From Mumia quercus (GTDB taxonomy: Bacteria > Actinomycetota > Actinomycetes > Propionibacteriales > Nocardioidaceae): a stretch of DNA of 64,000 nt. Of this stretch, positions 18,228-27,331 are shown in pieces (positions within the stretch are counted from its first letter, which is position 1; each line of letters opens with the position of its first letter). The translations under genes and the position numbers were made by a program. Location of the stretch: contig NZ_JANZYO010000004.1 of NCBI RefSeq assembly GCF_025506335.1, forward strand, positions 248,001 through 312,000, in the 5' to 3' direction. A model generated the notes under the pieces. That model saw nothing but the letters and a program-made list of their open reading frames with translations. It had not been told where the DNA came from and made no database searches.

Positions 18228-19277
18228 TCAGAAGTTGAAGTCGTCGATGTTGTCCTTGTTGAACTCCAGCGGCTCGCCGAGGACCACGACGCCGTTCTCG
18301 CCGACGGTGTACTCACCGAGCTTGCCGGCCTCGAACTTGTCGCCTTCCTTGCCCTCGATCTCGCCCTCGATGAGCGCCTTCGCGGCGAAGGCGGTCAGGT
18401 AGCCGAGGTCCTCGGGGCTCCACAGCGCGAACGAGCCGACGGTGCCGTTCTTGACGTACTCACGCATCTGGTCCGGGGTGCCCAGACCGGTCAGCGCGAC
18501 CTTGCCCTTGTACTGCGAGTCCGACAGGTAGCGGGCCGCCGCGGCGATGCCGACGGTGGTCGGAGAGACGATGCCCTTGAGGTCGGAGTGCTTCTGCAGG
18601 AGCGCGGCGGTCTTGTCGAACGACGTCTGGTCGTCGTCGTCGCCGTAGACCGTCTCGACGAGCTCGATGTTCGGGTGGTTCGCCTTGAGCTCCTCCTCCA
18701 TGAGCTTGATCCACTCGTTCTGGTTCGTCGCGTTCGCCGACGCCGAGAGGATGGCGATCTTGCCCTGGTCGCCGATGGCCTTGGCGATGAGCTCGACCTG
18801 CTTGGAGGCGATGCCCTTGGCGTCGGCCTGGCTCACGAAGAGGTCGCGGTACTCCGGATCGGTGTCGGAGTCGAAGGTCACGACCTTGGTGCCGGCGTCA
18901 CGCGCCTCCTGGAGGGCGTCGCCGATGGCCTTCGGGTCGTTCGCCGAGATGGCGATCGCGCCGGTGCCCTGCTGGGTCAGCGTGTTGATGTAGCTGACCT
19001 GCGAGTCGGGCGTCGCCTCGGACGGGCCGACCTCCTTGAAGGTGCCACCGAACTCCTCGACGGCCGCCTTGCCGCCGGTCGAGGAGGCGTCGAAGTACGG
19101 GTTGCCGAGGTTCTTCGGGAGGAACGTCACCGACAGGTCGCCGCTGCCGCCGTCGCCGGAACCGCCCTCGTCATCGCTTCCGCCGCAGGCGGTGAGCACC
19201 AGGCTCAGGCCGAGCGCAGCGGCGACGGCCGGGACGAACCGGCCAAGGCCGCGACGCCTCGTCGTTGCTGTGGTCAT
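18228..19277 (-). CDS. rhaS: Rhamnose ABC transporter substrate-binding lipoprotein
   Basis: A 349-residue periplasmic-binding-protein-like lipoprotein. The signal peptide ends in the lipobox LTAC (about residues 29-32), followed by a Gly/Ser/Asp-rich linker. The mature part is a peripls_BP_4-type sugar-binding domain (FLPKNLGNPYFDASSTGGKAAVEEF, AISANDPKAIGDAL, VVTFDSDTDPEYRDLFV), close to RhaS of rhizobia. It should capture L-rhamnose outside the membrane. The ATG at 19277 overlaps the permease stop (ATGA). Importer, mutarotase and isomerase in one operon support rhamnose as ligand. Confidence 0.9.
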   Translation of the reverse strand: MTTATTRRRGLGRFVPAVAAALGLSLVLTACGGSDDEGGSGDGGSGDLSVTFLPKNLGNPYFDASSTGGKAAVEEFGGTFKEVGPSEATPDSQVSYINTLTQQGTGAIAISANDPKAIGDALQEARDAGTKVVTFDSDTDPEYRDLFVSQADAKGIASKQVELIAKAIGDQGKIAILSASANATNQNEWIKLMEEELKANHPNIELVETVYGDDDDQTSFDKTAALLQKHSDLKGIVSPTTVGIAAAARYLSDSQYKGKVALTGLGTPDQMREYVKNGTVGSFALWSPEDLGYLTAFAAKALIEGEIEGKEGDKFEAGKLGEYTVGENGVVVLGEPLEFNKDNIDDFNF

Positions 19278-20416
19278 CGGTCTTCTCTCTCTCGCTCGCC
19301 GACCGGGGTGTCCGTGTCGGACTGGGGTACGCCGGGCGCGGAGGTGCCTGGCGATGTAGCGCTTGACTGCGCTCCGGGGCCGCCTCGCCGTCGTCGCTTG
19401 CTGCTGACCCAGCCGAGGACGCTCGAGCCCACGACGGAGACGACCAGCAGAAGGCCGGTGACGATGTTGATGACGTCGGCGGTCTGGTCGGCAAGGCGCA
19501 ACGCGCTGCCGATCGCCCCGATGAGGAGCACACCGGCGATCACGCCGGGAAGTGCCCCTCGTCCGCCGAAGATCGAGACGCCGCCGAGGAGGACTGCGGC
19601 GATGACCTGCAGCTCCATCCCGTTGGCGTTGTCGCCGCGGGCACTTCCGTACCGCAGCGTGTAGTAGATGCCTGCGAGCGCGGAGACCACGCCCGTGAGC
19701 ACGAACAGGAGCAGCTTGGTCCGCTCCACGCGGATGCCGGAGAAGCGCGCGGCGCCCTCGTTGAGGCCGATCGCGTACACGCCTCGACCGAACGCGGTGA
19801 AGTGGAGCAGGACGATGAAGAGGATCGCGAGCACCGCGAACGGGATCATGATCGACGGAATGTCCGACTCGCCGATGCGCCCGCGCGCCCAGTCGGTCCA
19901 CGTGTCCGGGAAGTCCGTGACGGCCGTGGTCCCGAGCAGACCCACGGCGATGCCGCGGTAGAGGGCGAGCGTGCCGATCGTGACGGCGAGCGACGGGAGG
20001 CCGACCGTCGTCACGAGGAACCCGTTGAACGCGCCGCACACGACGCCGACCAGCAGCGCGGCCAGGGCCGCGACGAGGATCGGGGTGCCCTTGTCGTACA
20101 GGACACCGAACGAGACGCTCGCGAGCGCGACCGTGCTCGCGACCGACAGGTCGATCTCACCGGTGATGATCACCAGCGTCATCGGCAGCGCGATCAGGAG
20201 GATCGGCGCGACGTCGAGGAGCAGGTACGTGATCGTGATCGGCCGGTCGAAGAACGGCACCGTCGCCGACGCGTACAGGTAGACGACGACCAGCGCTGCC
20301 CAGACCGCGACGTCACGGCTGAAGAGGATCCGCTGCCACAGCGGCCGCTGGTGGTCGCGGTAGGTGCGAGCGACCTGCTTCGTCTCGCTGTCGGAGGGGT
20401 GGATGAGGCTGGTCAT
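19274..20416 (-). CDS. rhaQ: Rhamnose ABC transporter permease (second)
   Basis: A 380-residue RbsC/BPD_transp_2-family inner-membrane permease. Hydrophobic helices run from about residue 35 to 340. The family motif ITGEIDLSVASTVALASV and the coupling-region sequence GLNEGAARFSGIRVERTKLL are both present. The last 40 residues form a hydrophilic tail rich in Arg, Ser, Thr and Pro. The ATG at 20416 overlaps the stop of the other permease (ATGA). The two permeases presumably form a heterodimer. Which of P and Q is which is by convention only. Confidence 0.88.
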   Translation of the reverse strand: MTSLIHPSDSETKQVARTYRDHQRPLWQRILFSRDVAVWAALVVVYLYASATVPFFDRPITITYLLLDVAPILLIALPMTLVIITGEIDLSVASTVALASVSFGVLYDKGTPILVAALAALLVGVVCGAFNGFLVTTVGLPSLAVTIGTLALYRGIAVGLLGTTAVTDFPDTWTDWARGRIGESDIPSIMIPFAVLAILFIVLLHFTAFGRGVYAIGLNEGAARFSGIRVERTKLLLFVLTGVVSALAGIYYTLRYGSARGDNANGMELQVIAAVLLGGVSIFGGRGALPGVIAGVLLIGAIGSALRLADQTADVINIVTGLLLVVSVVGSSVLGWVSSKRRRRGGPGAQSSATSPGTSAPGVPQSDTDTPVGEREREDR

Positions 20417-21447
20417 GCGGCGTCCCTCTCTGCCAGCAGCTTCTTGTGCTGACGCTCGCGCAGCACCTTGTCGAGGACGATCGCGGCGATGATGAGGATG
20501 CCGACCACGGCGCGCTGCCAGAAGTCCTGGATGCCGAGGATCGGGAGGCCGCGGTTGATCGTCATGAGGAGGTAGGCGCCGACTGCGGCACCGAAGAGGG
20601 TGCCGCTGCCGCCGAAGATCGCGACGCCGCCGATGACCGCCGCACCGACCGCCTCGAACTCGATGCCGAGCCCGGCGCCGGAGCTGATGGTGCCGTAGCG
20701 CGCGACGTACAGGACGCCTGCGAGACCGGCGAGGCCACCGGAGGCGGCGAACGCCAGCAGGGTGCGCTTGGTCTTCTTCAGGCCGTAGAGGGTCGCCGCG
20801 TCTGGGTCGGACCCGATCGCGTACATCTCGCGGCCCCCGCGCGTGCGTCCCATGACGTACGCGCCGATGCCGAGGACGAGGAAGGAGATCCAGGCCAGCG
20901 ACGGGATCCCGAGGATCGACGACGTGCCGAAGGAGAGCAGGTCGCGCGGGATGTCGGAAGCGTTGATCCGGTCCGAGCCGGCCCACGACATCATGATGCC
21001 GCGGTAGATGTAGAGCGTGCCGAGCGTGATGACGAGCGCCGGGACCTTCGCGAACGCGACGAGCACGCCGTTGACCAGGCCCAGGACGACGCCGAGCAGG
21101 ACCGCCAGCAGGAGCACGACCGGGACCGGGAGGCCGGTGTCGACGAAGAGACGCCCGGTCGCGTACGCCACGAGCCCGAGGATCGAGCCTACGGAGAGAT
21201 CGACGTTGCGGGTGATGATGACGATCGCCTGGCCGACCGCGAGGACCACCAGGATCGACGGCGTCAGGAAGAGGTCGCGCCACCCGTCCTTGCTGAAGAG
21301 GAACGACGGGTTGATGGCGGTCGTGACCGCGAGGACCACCAGGAACGCGAGGATGATGCCGGTCTCGCGGGCCTGCACGATCTTGCGGAGCCGGTCGCCG
21401 GTCGACGGCTTCGGCGCCGCGTGGGCGGCGGGGGCTGCGGTGCTCAT
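20413..21447 (-). CDS. rhaP: Rhamnose ABC transporter permease (first)
   Basis: A 344-residue BPD_transp_2-family permease with about eight to ten hydrophobic segments. Motifs: IVIITRNVDLSVGSILGLVAYATG, VNGVLVAFAKVPALVITLGTLYIYRG and the cytoplasmic coupling loop AIGSDPDAATLYGLKKTKRTLL. A GGSGTLFGAAVGAYLL repeat near the end is typical of ribose/rhamnose permeases. The ends overlap the ATPase gene upstream and the second permease downstream by 4 bp each, so translation is coupled. Confidence 0.88.
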   Translation of the reverse strand: MSTAAPAAHAAPKPSTGDRLRKIVQARETGIILAFLVVLAVTTAINPSFLFSKDGWRDLFLTPSILVVLAVGQAIVIITRNVDLSVGSILGLVAYATGRLFVDTGLPVPVVLLLAVLLGVVLGLVNGVLVAFAKVPALVITLGTLYIYRGIMMSWAGSDRINASDIPRDLLSFGTSSILGIPSLAWISFLVLGIGAYVMGRTRGGREMYAIGSDPDAATLYGLKKTKRTLLAFAASGGLAGLAGVLYVARYGTISSGAGLGIEFEAVGAAVIGGVAIFGGSGTLFGAAVGAYLLMTINRGLPILGIQDFWQRAVVGILIIAAIVLDKVLRERQHKKLLAERDAA

Positions 21448-22961
21448 GCGGACGCTCCCTGGGTGTTCGTGGCCGCAAACATGACCGCCTCGGGGGTGGC
21501 CTCGTCGCGGCTGAGCTCGGCGGTGATGCGACCCTCGTGGACGACGACGACCCGGTCGGCCATCCCGAGGACCTCGGGGAGCTCCGACGAGATCATGACG
21601 ACGGCCATGCCTTCGCCGGCGAGGGCGGACAGCAGGCGGTGGACCTCGGCCTTCGTGCCGACGTCGATGCCGCGGGTGGGCTCGTCGACGATCAGGACGT
21701 CAGGCTTGGTGCTGAGCCACTTGGCGAGGACGACCTTCTGCTGGTTGCCGCCGCTCAGGGTGCCCGCGAGCGTGTCGAGCGTGCTCGTCTTGACCTCCAG
21801 GCGCGAGGCCCAGTCACGGGCGGTGGCGTTCTCGGCGCGCGCCGAGAGCAGGCCCGCGCGGCTCAGGCGGCCACGGATCGCCATGGTGATGTTGCGCGTG
21901 ATGGTCGACTCGAGGACGAGCCCGTGCTTGCGGCGGTCCTCGGGGACGAGGGCCATGCCGAGCCGGATCGCAGCGGCCGGGTCGTTCGGCGGCACGACCT
22001 TGCCCGAGACCTTGACGGTGCCGGAGTCGTACGGGTCGACGCCGAAGGCGGCCTGCATGATCTCGCTGCGCCCGGCGCCGACGAGACCGGCGAGGCCGAC
22101 GATCTCCCCGCGACGGACCTGGAGGTCGACGTCGTGGAACACGCCGGCGCGGTTCAGCCCCTCGATCTCGAGGACGACCTCGCCGATCGCGGCAGGCTGC
22201 TTCGGGTAGAGCTCACCGACCTCGCGGCCGACGAGCCGTCGCACGACGTCGTCGACCGTGACGTCCGCGATGCGGTCGGTCGAGATGTACGCGCCGTCGC
22301 GCATCACCGTGATGGTGTCGCAGAGGGCGAAGACCTCGTCGAAGCGGTGGGAGATGAAGACGAGGGCGCGACCTTCGTCGCGCAGCGCACGGGCGATCGT
22401 CATCAGGCGCTCGACCTCGACGCCGGACAGCGCGGCCGTCGGCTCGTCCATGATGAGGACGCGGGCGTCGAGGGAGATGGCCTTGGCGATCTCGATGATC
22501 TGCTGGTCGGCGATCGAGAGGCCGTCAGCGGGGCGCTCGGGGTCGATGGCGACGCCGAGCCGGTCGAAGAGGGCGCGGGCCTCGGTGTCCATGGCCTTGC
22601 GGTCGATCCGGCCGAAACGGTTGCGCGGCTGGCGGCCCATGAAGAGGTTCTCGGTGACGCTGAGATCCGGGAAGAGCGTCGGCTCCTGGTAGATGACGGC
22701 GATGCCGGCGTCCTTCGCCTCGGCCGTGCTGCGGAAGTCGACCGGCTCCCCGAAGAGCTCGTACGAGCCCGAGTCCGCGCGGTACAGCCCCGCGATGATC
22801 TTGACCATCGTCGACTTGCCGGCGCCGTTCTCACCGACGAGCGCGTGGATCGACCCGGTGGTGACGGTCAGGCTGCCCGAGCGCAGGGCGACCACCTGCC
22901 CGAAGGTCTTCGAGACGTCGCGCAGTTCGAGCGCAACCGTCCCGGGGGCGGCTGTGGCCAT
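21444..22961 (-). CDS. rhaT: Rhamnose ABC transporter ATPase (double ABC domain)
   Basis: A 505-residue sugar-type ATPase with two ABC domains in tandem, like RbsA. The first has Walker A GENGAGKST (about residues 41-49), signature LSIADQQ and Walker B RVLIMDEPTAAL. The second has LSGGNQQKVVLAKWL and DVLIVDEPTRGIDVG, with a degenerate Walker A (GLVGAGRSE) as usual for this family. First gene of the rhamnose operon. The ATG at 22961 is preferred because GAGGAAG lies directly upstream; a GTG four codons earlier is in frame. The name rhaT here follows the rhizobial ABC system, not the E. coli symporter. Confidence 0.9.
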   Translation of the reverse strand: MATAAPGTVALELRDVSKTFGQVVALRSGSLTVTTGSIHALVGENGAGKSTMVKIIAGLYRADSGSYELFGEPVDFRSTAEAKDAGIAVIYQEPTLFPDLSVTENLFMGRQPRNRFGRIDRKAMDTEARALFDRLGVAIDPERPADGLSIADQQIIEIAKAISLDARVLIMDEPTAALSGVEVERLMTIARALRDEGRALVFISHRFDEVFALCDTITVMRDGAYISTDRIADVTVDDVVRRLVGREVGELYPKQPAAIGEVVLEIEGLNRAGVFHDVDLQVRRGEIVGLAGLVGAGRSEIMQAAFGVDPYDSGTVKVSGKVVPPNDPAAAIRLGMALVPEDRRKHGLVLESTITRNITMAIRGRLSRAGLLSARAENATARDWASRLEVKTSTLDTLAGTLSGGNQQKVVLAKWLSTKPDVLIVDEPTRGIDVGTKAEVHRLLSALAGEGMAVVMISSELPEVLGMADRVVVVHEGRITAELSRDEATPEAVMFAATNTQGASA

Positions 22962-23009
22962 CGACTTCCTCACCGACTTCCGTACACGCCGTTAACCAGG
23001 TGTGCATGT

Positions 23010-23023
23010 TTGAATCGTTTCAA
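23010..23023. promoter_or_regulatory. LacI-type operator in the rhamnose operon leader
   Basis: TTGAATC-GTTTCAA is a 14-bp palindrome with one mismatched pair around a central CG. It lies just downstream of the predicted minus-strand promoter, where a bound repressor would block transcription. Confidence 0.65.
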
Positions 23024-23041
23024 TTAACGTGGCGTTCACAA

Positions 23042-23068
23042 GGTATAGGAGGCCCTTGACCCGGTCAA
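23042..23068 (-). promoter_or_regulatory. Promoter of the rhamnose operon
   Basis: On the minus strand, TTGACC (23063-23068) and TATACC (23042-23047) are 15 nt apart and resemble -35 and -10 elements. The -35 element lies within a CCCTTGACC-C-GGTCAAGGG palindrome (23053-23071). The two LacI-type operators flank the promoter. Confidence 0.5.
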
Positions 23069-23076
23069 GGGGTAGT

Positions 23077-23090
23077 TTGAAACGATTCAG
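23077..23090. promoter_or_regulatory. Second LacI-type operator between rhaT and the regulator gene
   Basis: TTGAAAC-GATTCAG shares the core of the sites at 6649 and 23010, with two mismatched pairs. It lies between the operon promoter and the LacI-family gene and may mediate autoregulation or looping. Confidence 0.5.
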
Positions 23091-23156
23091 TGGCAGACTG
23101 CACACCCTGTGCGTCAGACTGCCTCGCACACATCCCAGCGAGACCGAGGAGCCGCC

Positions 23157-24191
23157 GTGGTCGAGACCCCGTCCGCGCCCACGCCCGCGTCCAGCCTTCG
23201 TGACGTGGCGGCGCTCGCTGGGGTCTCTGTCGGAACTGTCTCAAACGTCCTCAATCATCCCACCAAGGTGTCGGCGCAGACCGCCGAGCGTGTCTTCGCC
23301 GCCATCCAGCAGCTCGGATTCGTCCGAAACGAGGCGGCCCGCCAGCTCCGCCAGGGCCACAGCCGCTCGGTCGGCCTGATCGTCCTCGACATCCGCAACC
23401 CGTTCTTCACCGACGTCGCCCAAGGCGTCGAGGACGAGGTCACCGCGCGGTCGCGCAGCGTGCTCCTCGCCAACTGCGCCGAGGACGCCGCCCGTGAGAG
23501 CGCGTACCTCGACCTCTTCGAGGAGCAGCGGGTCGACGGCCTGCTGATCTCGCCCGTCGGCGACGTGCTCGAGCGCCTCGACCGGCTGCGCGCACGTGGC
23601 ATGGCCGTGATCCTCGTCGACCGGCTCGCGTCGACGGAGTCGTACAGCTCGGTGTCCGTCGACGACGTGCGCGGTGGGCGGATCGCCACGGAGCACCTGC
23701 TCTCCCTCGGGCGCCGTCGGATCACCTTCGTCGGGGCATCGACCGACATCGAGCAGGTGCGTGACCGGCTGGCCGGCGCGAAGGCAGCGGTGGCCGAGGT
23801 TCCCGACGCCACCCTCGAGCACCGCGAGATCGCCGGGATGAACGTCGCCCCCGCACTCGCTGAGGGCGAGCGCATCGTCGCGCTGCCGCCTGGGGAGCGC
23901 CCGGACGCCGTGTTCGCCGCCAACGACCTGATCGCCATGGGCATGCTCCAGGCGTTCACGCTGGGCGGGCTGCGCGTCCCCGACGACGTCGCTCTGATCG
24001 GCTACGACGACATCGACTACGCGGCGTCGGCGGCCATCCCGCTGTCGTCGATCCGTCAGCCTTCGCGCGAGATGGGCCGTCGCGCCGCCGAGCTGCTGCT
24101 GACCGAGATCGAGGCCGGCAGCAGGAACGCCGAGCACCAGCACATCGTGTTCGAGCCCGAGCTGGTCGCCCGCGCCTCGACGCTGGGCTGA
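23157..24191 (+). CDS. LacI-family regulator of rhamnose utilisation
   Basis: About 344 residues. N-terminal LacI helix-turn-helix and hinge (SLRDVAALAGVSVGTVSNVLNHPTKVSAQTAERVFAAIQQLGF), then a periplasmic-binding-protein-like effector domain (SVGLIVLDIRNPFFTDVAQGVEDE through VALIGYDDIDYAASAAIPLSSIRQP). The GTG at 23157 is chosen because GAGGAG (23146-23151) precedes it; an in-frame GTG at 23109 has no such site. Divergent from the rhamnose operon, and the shared region has two LacI-type operators matching the one before the rhamnosidase gene. It is probably a repressor relieved by rhamnose or a pathway intermediate. It is not an AraC-type RhaR/RhaS. Confidence 0.88.
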   Translation: MVETPSAPTPASSLRDVAALAGVSVGTVSNVLNHPTKVSAQTAERVFAAIQQLGFVRNEAARQLRQGHSRSVGLIVLDIRNPFFTDVAQGVEDEVTARSRSVLLANCAEDAARESAYLDLFEEQRVDGLLISPVGDVLERLDRLRARGMAVILVDRLASTESYSSVSVDDVRGGRIATEHLLSLGRRRITFVGASTDIEQVRDRLAGAKAAVAEVPDATLEHREIAGMNVAPALAEGERIVALPPGERPDAVFAANDLIAMGMLQAFTLGGLRVPDDVALIGYDDIDYAASAAIPLSSIRQPSREMGRRAAELLLTEIEAGSRNAEHQHIVFEPELVARASTLG

Positions 24192-24206: not shown

Positions 24207-25646
24207 TCACGCCGGCGCCGGCACCTCGTACGGGATGCGGACGGTGAACCGGGTGTCACCGGGCTCGGACTCCACACGCAGGTCGCCGTGGTGCTTCTTC
24301 ACGACGATGCGCCAGGAGATGTCGAGGCCCAGGCCGGTCCCCTCGCCGACCGGCTTCGTGGTGAAGAACGGCTCGAAGATGCGCCCCCGTACGTCGGCGG
24401 GGATGCCGGGTCCGGTGTCGGCGACCTCGACCTCGCACCAGTCCTCGACCCGGCGCGTGCTGATCGTGAGCGTGCCCGAGCCTTTCATCGCCTGGACCGC
24501 GTTGACGATCAGGTTGGTCCAGACCTGGTTCATCTCCGCGGCGTACATCGGCACCGGGGCGATCGTCCGGTCGTAGCGCTTGACGACCTCGATCCCACCC
24601 AGCTTCTTCTGGAGCATCACCAAGGTCGCGTCGATCAGCTCGTGCACGTCGGTGCGCACGAACGGCGCCCGGTCGAGCTGCGAGTACTGCTTGGCAGCGT
24701 CGACCAGGGTCGACACCCGGGTCGTCGCGTCCTCGATCTCGGCCATCAGCTCCTCGGTCTCGAGCGCGTACGCGAGCCAGCGCACCGCGCCGGGAAGCAC
24801 CTCAGCATCGACCTGGGACGCGGCGTGGTCCAGCCAGGTCTCGTCGATCCCGGCGGAGACGAGGACCGCCGCGACCTCCCACCCCCGCTCGACGTCGTGG
24901 TCGTCGAGCCAGTCGGTGATCCGGTCCTCGAGGTCGGACGACTCGAGCGCGCCCAGCGCGTCGGCAGCGACCGCCTGCCCCCGCCGGGTCAGTGCGTCTT
25001 CCTGGAGCTGCATCAAGGTCGCGATCGTCGCGCGGTCGTACGGCCCCTCGGCGATCAGGGCGAGCTTGTGGCGCATGGCCGCGACCCGCTCGCGCAGGGT
25101 CGCCGTCGCACGCACCGCGGCCGACGCGGGGTTGTTGAGCTCGTGGGTGAGGCCGGCCGAGAGCTGGCCGAGGGCCTGGAGCCGCTCCCGCTGGCCGATC
25201 GCGGCCTGGGTGTTGCGCTGCCCGAAGAAGAGGCCCTCGAGAAGGTGGACCGCCATCGGGAACCACTCGTTCATGAGCTTGGCGAAGTCTGCCGCATCGA
25301 GCACGAAGAACCGCGACGGCTGCAGGACCCGCGTCGAGCCGCCGTACCCCTCGGGGGCACGGTCGCCGAGGTACGCCGACCACGCGCCGGTGTAGACGCC
25401 GGGCTGCGAGGTCCGCGAGATCTCGACGTCGTCGCCACCGACGGTCCGGAAGAGGGCGATCTCACCCTCCAGCATCACGTAGAAGCACGTAGCCGGGTCG
25501 CCCTCGCGGGTCAGCCAGCCGGGCTCGGCGTGCTCGACGTACCCGTGCTCGCACAGCCAGGCGAGCTGCCAGTCCTCGAGGTGCTCGAAGAGAAACATCG
25601 TGCGCAGCTCGGCCACCTCGCACGGGAGGCGTTCGGGGGCGCTCAC
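24207..25646 (-). CDS. Sensor histidine kinase with cyclic-nucleotide-binding-like domain
   Basis: A 479-residue soluble kinase. The N-terminal cNMP/CRP-like beta-barrel (about 18-130, LTREGDPATCFYVMLEGEIALFR) replaces a transmembrane sensor. The dimerisation helix carries the H-box QLSAGLTHELNNP with His168. A long helical insert spans about 185-330. The HATPase_c domain has N-box MNQVWTNLIVNAVQAM, G1 VADTGPGIP, F-box FEPFFTTK and G2 GEGTGLGLDIS. Its start overlaps the stop of the upstream response-regulator/reductase fusion by 4 bp, so the two should be made together and act as partners. The signal is unknown; a cyclic nucleotide or redox cue is possible. Confidence 0.88.
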   Translation of the reverse strand: MSAPERLPCEVAELRTMFLFEHLEDWQLAWLCEHGYVEHAEPGWLTREGDPATCFYVMLEGEIALFRTVGGDDVEISRTSQPGVYTGAWSAYLGDRAPEGYGGSTRVLQPSRFFVLDAADFAKLMNEWFPMAVHLLEGLFFGQRNTQAAIGQRERLQALGQLSAGLTHELNNPASAAVRATATLRERVAAMRHKLALIAEGPYDRATIATLMQLQEDALTRRGQAVAADALGALESSDLEDRITDWLDDHDVERGWEVAAVLVSAGIDETWLDHAASQVDAEVLPGAVRWLAYALETEELMAEIEDATTRVSTLVDAAKQYSQLDRAPFVRTDVHELIDATLVMLQKKLGGIEVVKRYDRTIAPVPMYAAEMNQVWTNLIVNAVQAMKGSGTLTISTRRVEDWCEVEVADTGPGIPADVRGRIFEPFFTTKPVGEGTGLGLDISWRIVVKKHHGDLRVESEPGDTRFTVRIPYEVPAPA

Positions 25647-27331
25647 AGCTGCTCCAGGTAGCGGTGCACGAGCATCACGGCCATCGCGCCCTCGCCGACC
25701 GCGGACGCCACCCGCTTGGCCGACTCGGCACGGACGTCGCCGGCGGCGAAGATCCCGGGGACGCTGCTCTCCAGGTGGTACGGCGGGCGGTCGAGCGGCC
25801 AGCCCGGCGGCGGCGCACCGTCGCGCAGCAGGTCGGGACCGGTGGTCACGAACCCGTACGGGTCACGGACGACGACGCCGTCGAGCCACTCGGTGCGCGG
25901 TACCGCGCCGATGAAGACGAACAGCCAGCCGCAGGGGACGGTGGTGGTCTCGTCGGTCGCGACGTCGCGCAGCACGATGCCCTCGAGGTGACCCTCCCCG
26001 CAGGCCTCGGCGACGACGGTCGACGTCCTCACGCTGATCCGCGGGTGCGCCTCGACCTGCTCGACGAGGTACGCCGACATCGACTGCGTCAGCGACGTCC
26101 CCCGGACGAGGATCGTCACGCTGCGCGCCTCGCGCGCGAGCGCGAGCGCGGCCTGACCTGCAGAGTTGGCGCCTCCCACGACGTACACGTCCTGGTCCGC
26201 GCACGCTGCGGCGTTCGTGAGCGCCGACCCGTAGTAGAGGCCACGTCCCGACATCGCGTCGAGCCGCGGCCCTTCGAGGCGCCGGTACGACACCCCGCCG
26301 GCGAGGATCACCGTCTGCGCGTCGATGCTGCTGCCGTCGGCGAAGCGTACGGAGCGGGCCGCGCCGTTGACCTCCAGTCCGACCGCGTCACGCGTGGTGA
26401 CGAGCTCGGCGCCGAACTTCAGCGCCTGGCGCCGCGCACGCTCGGTCAGCTGCGCGCCCGAGACGCCGTCGGGGAACCCGAGGTAGTTCTCGATGCGTGA
26501 GCTCTGGCCCGCCTGGCCGCCTGTCGCCGTCCGCTCGACGAGCACCGTCCGCAGGCCCTCGGACGCCCCGTACAGAGCGGCGCTGAGACCCGCCGGTCCC
26601 CCGCCCACGACGACGACGTCGTAGAAGTCCTCGCTGGGCCGGGTCACGAGTCCCACCCGCTCGCCGAGGACCGCGTCGGTCGGCGCGACGAGGACGTCTC
26701 CGGCCGGGGTGACGACGACGGGCAGCTCCGGCTCGTCGAGCTCGGCAGCCTTGAGCAGCGCCCGGGCCTCCGACGAGTCGGTGGAGAACCACCGGTACGC
26801 CACCTGGTTGCGCGCCAGGAACTCCCGCACCGCCGACGAGCGCGCGGACCAGCGGTGGCCGATCAGCTTGGTCTCGGCGACCGGGTGGCGCTCGACCCTC
26901 GACCAGGCGTCGAGCTGGTCGTCGATCACCGGGTAGAGCTTCTCCTCGGGCGGGTCCCACGGCTTGAGGAGGTAGTGGTCGAGGTCGACGAGGTTGATCG
27001 CGTCGATGGCCGCGTCGGTGTCGGCGTACGCGGTGACGAGCACGCGCCGCGCGACCGGGAACAGGTCTATCGCCTGCTCCAGGAACTCGATGCCGGTCAT
27101 CAGGGGCATGCGGTGGTCGGCGAGGATCACGGCGACCTCCTCACCGCGCAGCCGGAGCTCTTTGAGCGCGTCGAGCGCGGCCGGACCCGACTCCGCACGC
27201 ACGATGCGGTAGTCGTCGCCGTACCTTCGCCGCAGGTCGCGGGCGAGCGCACGGGAGACGGCAGGGTCGTCGTCGACGGTCAGGAGTGCGGCGCGGGCGG
27301 ACTGGTCTCGCGCGGCCGGAGACTGCACCAT
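25643..27331 (-). CDS. Fused response regulator / thioredoxin-reductase-like flavoprotein
   Basis: 562 residues. N-terminal receiver domain (about 14-135) with acidic VDDD (20-22), phosphoacceptor Asp72 in LADHRMP and Lys123 in LLKPWD. A small domain follows (about 150-225). The C-terminal half (about 235-562) is a thioredoxin-reductase-type FAD/NAD(P)H oxidoreductase: VVVVGGGPAGLSAALYGASEG, GGQAGQSSRIENYLGFPDGVSG, second Rossmann motif VYVVGGANSAGQAALALA and PGIFAAGDVRAESAKRVASAVGEGA. The redox CxxC of true thioredoxin reductases is missing: the segment reads YYGSALTNAAAC. The output may therefore be a flavin-based activity other than thioredoxin reduction. It overlaps its kinase gene by 4 bp. 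Confidence 0.88.
   Translation of the reverse strand: MVQSPAARDQSARAALLTVDDDPAVSRALARDLRRRYGDDYRIVRAESGPAALDALKELRLRGEEVAVILADHRMPLMTGIEFLEQAIDLFPVARRVLVTAYADTDAAIDAINLVDLDHYLLKPWDPPEEKLYPVIDDQLDAWSRVERHPVAETKLIGHRWSARSSAVREFLARNQVAYRWFSTDSSEARALLKAAELDEPELPVVVTPAGDVLVAPTDAVLGERVGLVTRPSEDFYDVVVVGGGPAGLSAALYGASEGLRTVLVERTATGGQAGQSSRIENYLGFPDGVSGAQLTERARRQALKFGAELVTTRDAVGLEVNGAARSVRFADGSSIDAQTVILAGGVSYRRLEGPRLDAMSGRGLYYGSALTNAAACADQDVYVVGGANSAGQAALALAREARSVTILVRGTSLTQSMSAYLVEQVEAHPRISVRTSTVVAEACGEGHLEGIVLRDVATDETTTVPCGWLFVFIGAVPRTEWLDGVVVRDPYGFVTTGPDLLRDGAPPPGWPLDRPPYHLESSVPGIFAAGDVRAESAKRVASAVGEGAMAVMLVHRYLEQL

Follow-up and report, generated by a model that had tools for sequence, protein, structure and literature searches.

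The gene pair at positions 24207-27331 of a 64,000-nucleotide stretch of the Mumia quercus genome (contig NZ_JANZYO010000004.1; the whole stretch is hereafter the window) encodes a soluble histidine kinase and a receiver protein whose output is a flavoprotein fold in which both usual thiol relays have been replaced. A first-pass annotation of the window had described a two-component pair with a flavin-oxidoreductase-fold output, and this description is supported by the domain calls, by the conserved residues, and by retention of the pair in 80 of 80 related loci. It had also predicted that classic thioredoxin reduction is not possible; our analysis agrees for the usual site, and the genome holds a separate thioredoxin reductase with CATC. 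Our preferred reading, held at a little under even confidence, is that the fusion is a phosphorylation-controlled FAD/NAD(P)H flavoprotein that carries out non-thiol redox chemistry or redox sensing and acts with a UBP-type zinc-finger protein.

The receiver fusion and its two replaced redox sites

The features of the fusion gene are as follows.

25643-27331, minus strand: receiver, glutaredoxin-fold and thioredoxin-reductase-fold fusion, 562 amino acids, ATG start (open reading frame and domain calls)
26951-27286, minus strand: receiver domain, residues 16-127 (Pfam Response_reg, E 3.8e-13)
27116-27118, minus strand: codon of Asp72, the predicted phospho-acceptor (alignment)
26648-26878, minus strand: glutaredoxin-fold domain, residues ~152-228 (about 150-228; structure model and profile match)
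26837-26848, minus strand: SARS, residues 162-165, at the glutaredoxin CxxC position (alignment to 2lqo)
25655-26626, minus strand: thioredoxin-reductase-fold FAD/NAD(P)H domain, residues 236-559 (Pfam, profile and Foldseek matches)
26216-26227, minus strand: SALT, residues 369-372, at the CxxC position (alignment)
26201-26203, minus strand: Cys377, the lone conserved cysteine, outside the redox-pair position (81 of 81 sequences)

Conservation was scored on an alignment of the window fusion with 80 relatives (81 sequences). These are the best 80 kept from a homology scan, run with one genome per species, in which at least 589 stretches matched and at least 579 relatives were found; by record title all 80 loci are from Actinomycetota, mostly Streptomyces, Rhodococcus and Cellulomonas-type.

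The C-terminal half matches Pyr_redox_2 (residues 236-547, E 1.3e-30). The first-pass annotation had reported that its CxxC is replaced within the string YYGSALTNA, which the alignment confirms, placing the string at residues 366-374 and SALT opposite the CATC of thioredoxin reductase. The replacement takes the form S-x-x-T in nearly all relatives (S369 in 80/81 and T372 in 80/81). A CxxC elsewhere in the fold, which the annotation had named as the thing to check, is absent from the entire window fusion (its only cysteines are 377, 444 and 467), and none is conserved elsewhere across the 81-sequence alignment, where isolated cases occur at unrelated places in L016, L046 and L053. The residue following SALT, at a position that we take to correspond to the catalytic Asp139 of the E. 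coli enzyme, is Asn373 in the window and Asn also in the four of four same-genus sequences examined (L112-L115); it is Glu in 76 of the 81 aligned sequences.

The annotation had further stated that the FAD and pyridine-nucleotide motifs remain. For FAD this stands: both the GxGxxG and the C-terminal GD are present, with E266, G531 and D532 found in 81/81 sequences and G243, G245 and G248 invariant in 45. For the pyridine nucleotide it stands in part. The nucleotide loop reads GGANSA in all 81 sequences, so that GGA replaces GGG throughout, and the window carries VRGTSLT where thioredoxin reductase has HRRDEFR. The HRRxxxR motif, assigned to the NADPH 2′-phosphate in PMC8564101, keeps its first arginine (R410) in 81/81 sequences, its second in 0/81, and its third in 4/81, the window not among them.

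By Foldseek the domain shares the FAD/NAD(P)H fold of low-Mr thioredoxin reductases (5uth and 2a87; 31-33% identity over the domain), from which the fusion differs by having no CxxC, by the loss of most of HRRxxxR, and by its extra N-terminal domains. We rejected membership in the low-Mr thioredoxin reductases because of the first of these differences. The TIGR01292 score of the fusion is 204 bits (cut-off 343), and the third match to the fusion in the genome is the canonical thioredoxin reductase, which carries CATC and HRRDELR. In the AlphaFold model the pLDDT falls below 50 at residues 1-10, 269-291 (the FAD loop) and 534-542, and the TMt against the listed thioredoxin reductases ranges from 0.49 to 0.86, a spread probably due to differing domain orientation.

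The domain list of the first-pass annotation was incomplete in that it overlooked a glutaredoxin-fold domain with a lost CxxC of its own. Examined within the full-length model, this segment shows the strand and helix order of glutaredoxin (beta-alpha-beta-alpha-beta-beta-alpha). A 13-sequence profile of it matches Rv3198.1, a mycobacterial putative glutaredoxin that we take to be mycoredoxin (E 2.2e-5 in the PDB set), and Pfam Glutaredoxin matches 3 of the 13 members, the window member not among them. The WCGYC of the Rv3198.1 structure (2lqo) aligns to WSARS of the fusion, whose serines are conserved (S162 in 79/81 and S165 in 78/81; three sequences carry one Cys). The fold is that of glutaredoxin; we rejected membership in the glutaredoxins or mycoredoxins because SARS stands where either CxxC or CxxS would be expected. 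Judged from these aligned residues, thiol–disulfide exchange at either usual site of the fusion is excluded.

In layout the fusion resembles AhpF (4o5q and 1hyu), which is also among the Foldseek matches and in which one or more thioredoxin-fold domains likewise precede a thioredoxin-reductase-fold domain. AhpF uses a CxxC in both parts; in the fusion, by contrast, both relays are gone and a receiver has been added. That receiver keeps Asp20, Asp21, Asp72, Thr100 and Lys123, each in 81/81 sequences. The residues of a two-component system are therefore all present: the His and ATPase domain of the kinase and the Asp/Asp/Thr/Lys set of the receiver, in adjacent genes.

The kinase and the conservation of the pair

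The features of the kinase gene are as follows.

24207-25646, minus strand: soluble histidine kinase, 479 amino acids, GTG start (open reading frame and Pfam)
25269-25514, minus strand: Crp/cNMP-fold domain core, residues 45-126 (Pfam cNMP_binding, PF00027, E 2.3e-7)
25143-25145, minus strand: His168, the predicted phospho-donor (84 of 84 sequences)
24759-25088, minus strand: putative insertion of ~110 residues, residues 187-296, between the two predicted dimerisation helices
24225-24533, minus strand: HATPase_c, residues 372-474 (Pfam, E 1.6e-24)

The 4-bp overlap of the two genes given in the first-pass annotation is the GTGA at 25643-25646, shared by the end of the fusion gene and the start of the kinase gene. 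In 80/80 loci the kinase follows the fusion in the same order, with a projected gap of at most 286 nt, and in 64/80 the kinase frame has a start codon placed so as to give this 4-nt overlap. More distant copies of the fusion, 55, 55 and 49% identical, lie on plasmids of Deinococcus, Caballeronia and Nostoc, respectively, and each is paired with a kinase. Two further genes were observed near these plasmid pairs: one annotated as low temperature requirement protein A, which follows the pair in Deinococcus (L100) and Nostoc (L102), and one for a second kinase of the same type, which lies upstream of the pair in Deinococcus (L100:948-2429, 38% identical to the window kinase) and Caballeronia (L101:3445-4896, 33%).

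The three distant copies bring the kinase alignment to 84 sequences. The annotation had called the kinase a cNMP sensor, and the Crp-type fold is borne out by the sequence profile of PF00027 (31.1 bits, cut-off 27.5). We take the phosphate-binding signature of cNMP domains to be G-E ... P-R-x-[AS]; read by eye in the alignment, the kinase has YTGAWSAYL...YGGSTRV, in which the expected Glu and Arg are both missing. Just before the Crp-fold core, Cys9 and Cys32 are present in 81/81 close sequences and in none of the three distant ones, and Cys54 is found in 72/84. On this residue pattern, “cNMP sensor” is a fold assignment only, and a redox, metal or other ligand for the domain seems as likely as a nucleotide. 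The HisKA match is weak and below the cut-off (15.8 versus 26.9 bits) and ends at residue 186; the segment 187-296 has no Pfam match, and homology resumes near residue 297.

The output half also occurs behind a different sensor. In Rhodococcus and Rhizobium, a cNMP domain precedes the same glutaredoxin-like segment and the same thiol-less thioredoxin-reductase half (L103 and L104), and the segment that corresponds to glutaredoxin lacks CxxC in both. The same thiol-less output thus stands behind either a receiver or a cNMP domain, and sensor modules have therefore been swapped on one constant output. These proteins, of which L103 is labelled cNMP-binding-domain thioredoxin-disulfide reductase in the database and L104 is assigned to the type by Pfam, also share a UBP zinc-finger neighbor with the fusion; they differ in having an N-terminal Crp fold in place of the receiver, so that their input would be direct rather than by phosphorylation.

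The second-best match to the fusion in the source genome (4.1 Mb, 13 contigs) is a paralogue on another contig (42% identical; L091:8023-9747, plus strand; G000:C9, at about 468 kb). Its receiver is degenerate, with DRD for DDD (one acidic residue lost) and the conserved Thr lost, and GASVS stands at the CxxC site. None of the eight kinase-matched places in the genome lies on the contig of the paralogue, and paralogue-like copies (41-44%) occur in 5/5 congeners searched. By eye, the open reading frame downstream of the paralogue resembles an adenylate/guanylate cyclase-type protein.

A wider conserved operon was considered and rejected: clustering of open reading frames in 29 of the 80 loci gave no further gene common to at least 5 of 19 genus labels, and the remaining widespread clusters lie over the two genes of the pair, most of them antisense to it. 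This clustering took open reading frames of at least 90 amino acids and missed the zinc-finger gene described below, which a motif scan found. In the window itself, minus-strand genes for a sugar ABC transporter (substrate-binding protein, two permeases and ATPase) and a LacI-type regulator were recognized by eye at 18228-24191; the regulator gene (23109-24191, plus strand) is convergent with the kinase gene, and we do not see it as part of the pair.

A UBP-type zinc-finger gene near the pair

The two-gene picture of the first-pass annotation is incomplete, because a third gene, for a UBP-type zinc finger of ~112 residues, lies outside the window in this genome and was therefore overlooked. 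The motif scan found such a protein in 71/80 loci. In 70 of the 80 the gene stands directly behind the kinase on the same strand, and in 61 its start codon overlaps the kinase stop by 4 nt; the protein found at L045 is a different one, on the other strand. The zf-UBP scores are 52.0 bits for the L010 protein and 47.1 for the copy in this genome (cut-off 22.7). This copy is the only zf-UBP match in the genome (C8:247154-247507); it lies on the strand of the fusion, at a distance of 24.7 kb from the kinase and a little beyond the edge of the window. At L090:7154-9581 (minus strand, just before and at the window start) it adjoins a gene for an NhaA antiporter. In this genome and in the congeners G197, G198 and G201, 26-30 kb separate the fusion from the zinc finger, which lies downstream on the same strand; it is unlinked in the congener G200, and in the congener G199 the paralogue is the only form of the fusion present.

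Other arrangements occur. In two other actinobacterial genomes the zinc finger directly precedes the fusion, by motif in the order zinc finger, fusion, kinase in G046 and overlapping the start of the fusion in G207. It precedes the cNMP-type enzyme in Rhodococcus and Rhizobium, and in Burkholderia its gene and that of a family member (49% identical over 153-559) are transcribed divergently. The Rhodococcus neighborhood of enzyme and zinc finger includes dnaK, grpE, a J protein, cbpM, clpB and trxA, a stress context seen in one record only.

We also counted both proteins in a class-wide sample of 197 genomes (TrxR-like E ≤ 1e-120, pooling receiver- and cNMP-type proteins; zinc finger E ≤ 1e-8, pooling stand-alone and antiporter-fused forms). 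Among the matches listed, a TrxR-like protein is present in 80/197 genomes and a zinc finger in 118/197. The zinc finger accompanies 76/80 genomes with a TrxR-like protein versus 42/117 without (Fisher p 1e-18, phylogeny ignored); by genus the figures are 34/35 versus 27/56 (Fisher p 5e-7, again ignoring phylogeny). Many of the class-wide zf-UBP matches lie in open frames of 620-720 codons, and a Deinococcus plasmid carries a verified fusion of Na_H_Exchanger, TrkA_N and a C-terminal zf-UBP (L106:2201-4234, plus strand), which suggests that antiporter–zf-UBP fusions are common.

A structure model of the zinc finger has the fold of the ZnF-UBP domains, matching best a Rhodopseudomonas protein, RPA1320 (2ida; Z 12.3 over 93 residues, 2.4 Å), and next HDAC6 bound to ubiquitin (3phd; Z 8.6); a PHROGs search gave no match. 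It differs from HDAC6 and USP5 in being bacterial and stand-alone. The USP5 pocket for the ubiquitin C terminus comprises W209, R221, Y259 and Y261. Aligned by eye, the zinc finger keeps the Trp and Y261, has Trp for Y259, and has His at the position of R221. In PMC2602986, zf-UBP is counted among the conserved hypothetical mini-proteins of bacteria and archaea, and we found no assigned role for prokaryotic UBP-type zinc fingers in the open-access literature.

Reading of the system and its alternatives

The architecture for a phosphorelay is in place, and we expect that the Crp-fold soluble kinase would phosphorylate Asp72 of the fusion. From its motifs, the flavoprotein half should bind FAD and pyridine nucleotide. 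Electrons could not pass through cysteine pairs of the fusion, because both relays are lost (SALT for the thioredoxin-reductase CxxC and SARS for the glutaredoxin-fold one). Given this loss, the receiver would most likely act by a non-thiol route, through domain arrangement: its state would set how the receiver, glutaredoxin-fold and flavin domains are placed, and this placement would set either NAD(P)H oxidation or a read-out of the NAD(P)H/flavin redox state. Transfer could run directly from the flavin to a small acceptor or partner, the glutaredoxin-fold domain may provide a hinge or docking module, and a redox or stress response would use this output together with the often neighboring zinc-finger protein.

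Several observations weigh against this reading. Enzyme activity is known for no member of the family, the NAD(P)H site departs from the usual one (GGA, with two of the three HRRxxxR arginines missing here), and by these residues turnover may be weak or absent. The zinc-finger link is uneven. No zinc finger was found in 9/80 loci (in two of these, L046 and L015, the sequence past the kinase amounts to just 262 and 1,177 nt) or in the 11.6 kb of sequence surrounding each of the pairs from Deinococcus, Caballeronia and Nostoc, and an Arthrobacter plasmid carries a zinc finger without the pair in the 10 kb examined. Among 12 genomes searched, fusion and zinc finger are adjacent in G207 only; both are present and unlinked in G203, G211, G212 and G215, and G204 carries the fusion but lacks the zinc finger. 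Class-wide, among the zinc-finger matches listed, one lies within 5 kb at just 30 of 111 TrxR-like places, the co-occurrence statistics are uncorrected for phylogeny, and the 80 loci represent mostly three genus types. The zinc finger may thus be a partner in some lineages only.

A close rival, less probable than our preferred reading, is that the fusion is a pseudoenzyme: a thioredoxin-reductase fold without physiological turnover would sense NAD(P)H or the flavin redox state as a scaffold, and its conformation, governed by phosphorylation and cofactor state together, would control binding of a partner such as the zinc finger. Loss of both redox pairs, the weakened NAD(P)H motif, the strong conservation of many non-catalytic residues, and the association with a small binding-type domain are all consistent with it. 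Against it, the FAD and pyridine-nucleotide cores are strongly conserved, and the presumed Asp139 equivalent is still acidic in the 76 sequences with Glu, albeit Asn in the window and its genus.

It is more doubtful that the fusion is a ferredoxin/flavodoxin-NAD(P)+ reductase under two-component control, akin to the TrxR-like FNRs, which, according to PMC10294844, also have the thioredoxin-reductase fold without CxxC. Within a few kb of the Burkholderia family member there is indeed a gene annotated for a (2Fe-2S)-binding protein, adjacent to one for a molybdopterin-binding protein. By sequence the fusion nonetheless resembles thioredoxin reductases (5uth, E 6.6e-42) much more than FNRs (3lzw, E 1e-15), and it ends at VHRYLEQL, leaving no residues to form a C-terminal stacking extension. 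No ferredoxin or flavodoxin is annotated near the Deinococcus, Caballeronia, Nostoc, Rhodococcus or Rhizobium members in their incomplete gene tables, and no partner gene of this kind is established for the fusion.

A monothiol mechanism through Cys377 is improbable: the residue is conserved in 81/81 sequences and is also Cys in L101-L104, but it aligns five residues beyond the second position of the CxxC and probably lies away from the flavin, is replaced by Val in the copy from Deinococcus and by Met in the paralogue, and has no resolving cysteine. We give about as little credence to an extension of our preferred flavoprotein reading, in which the thiol-less protein would control the UBP zinc finger; the zinc finger would bind a small ubiquitin-like or sulfur-carrier protein at its free C-terminal glycines (or another free C terminus) and would then act on stress targets, and elsewhere the zf-UBP domain is fused to a cation/proton antiporter. 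Least probable of all is that the enzyme domain is irrelevant and that the fusion takes up phosphate from the kinase as a sink or serves it as an adaptor, an idea open because output has been shown for no member found and at odds with the flavoprotein half being what the receiver-less cNMP-type proteins share.

Receiver–thioredoxin reductase fusions (REC + TrxR) are listed in a census (PMC5847659) with the same architecture as the window fusion; in the portion of this source available, the census line carries no mention of a glutaredoxin-fold domain, CxxC loss, kinase or zinc finger. The statement of the first-pass annotation that similar fusions are annotated elsewhere is borne out by this census and by database labels on the two halves. 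Open-access full texts, a scope that leaves out most subscription literature, yielded no report on the loss of both cysteine pairs or on a link to the zinc finger, and the accessible parts of PMC8945050 and PMC6599016 nothing on the fusion family; the support that these negatives lend to novelty is weak.

Response regulators mostly act on transcription. The output of this one is a flavoprotein that has lost both thiol relays and whose FAD site is kept in Actinomycetota, Deinococcota, Betaproteobacteria and Cyanobacteria, which suggests a distinct and widespread kind of phosphorylation-controlled redox output. The database names thioredoxin-disulfide reductase and cyclic-nucleotide domain are probably misleading for the fusion group, and the prokaryotic UBP-type zinc fingers gain a concrete candidate partner.

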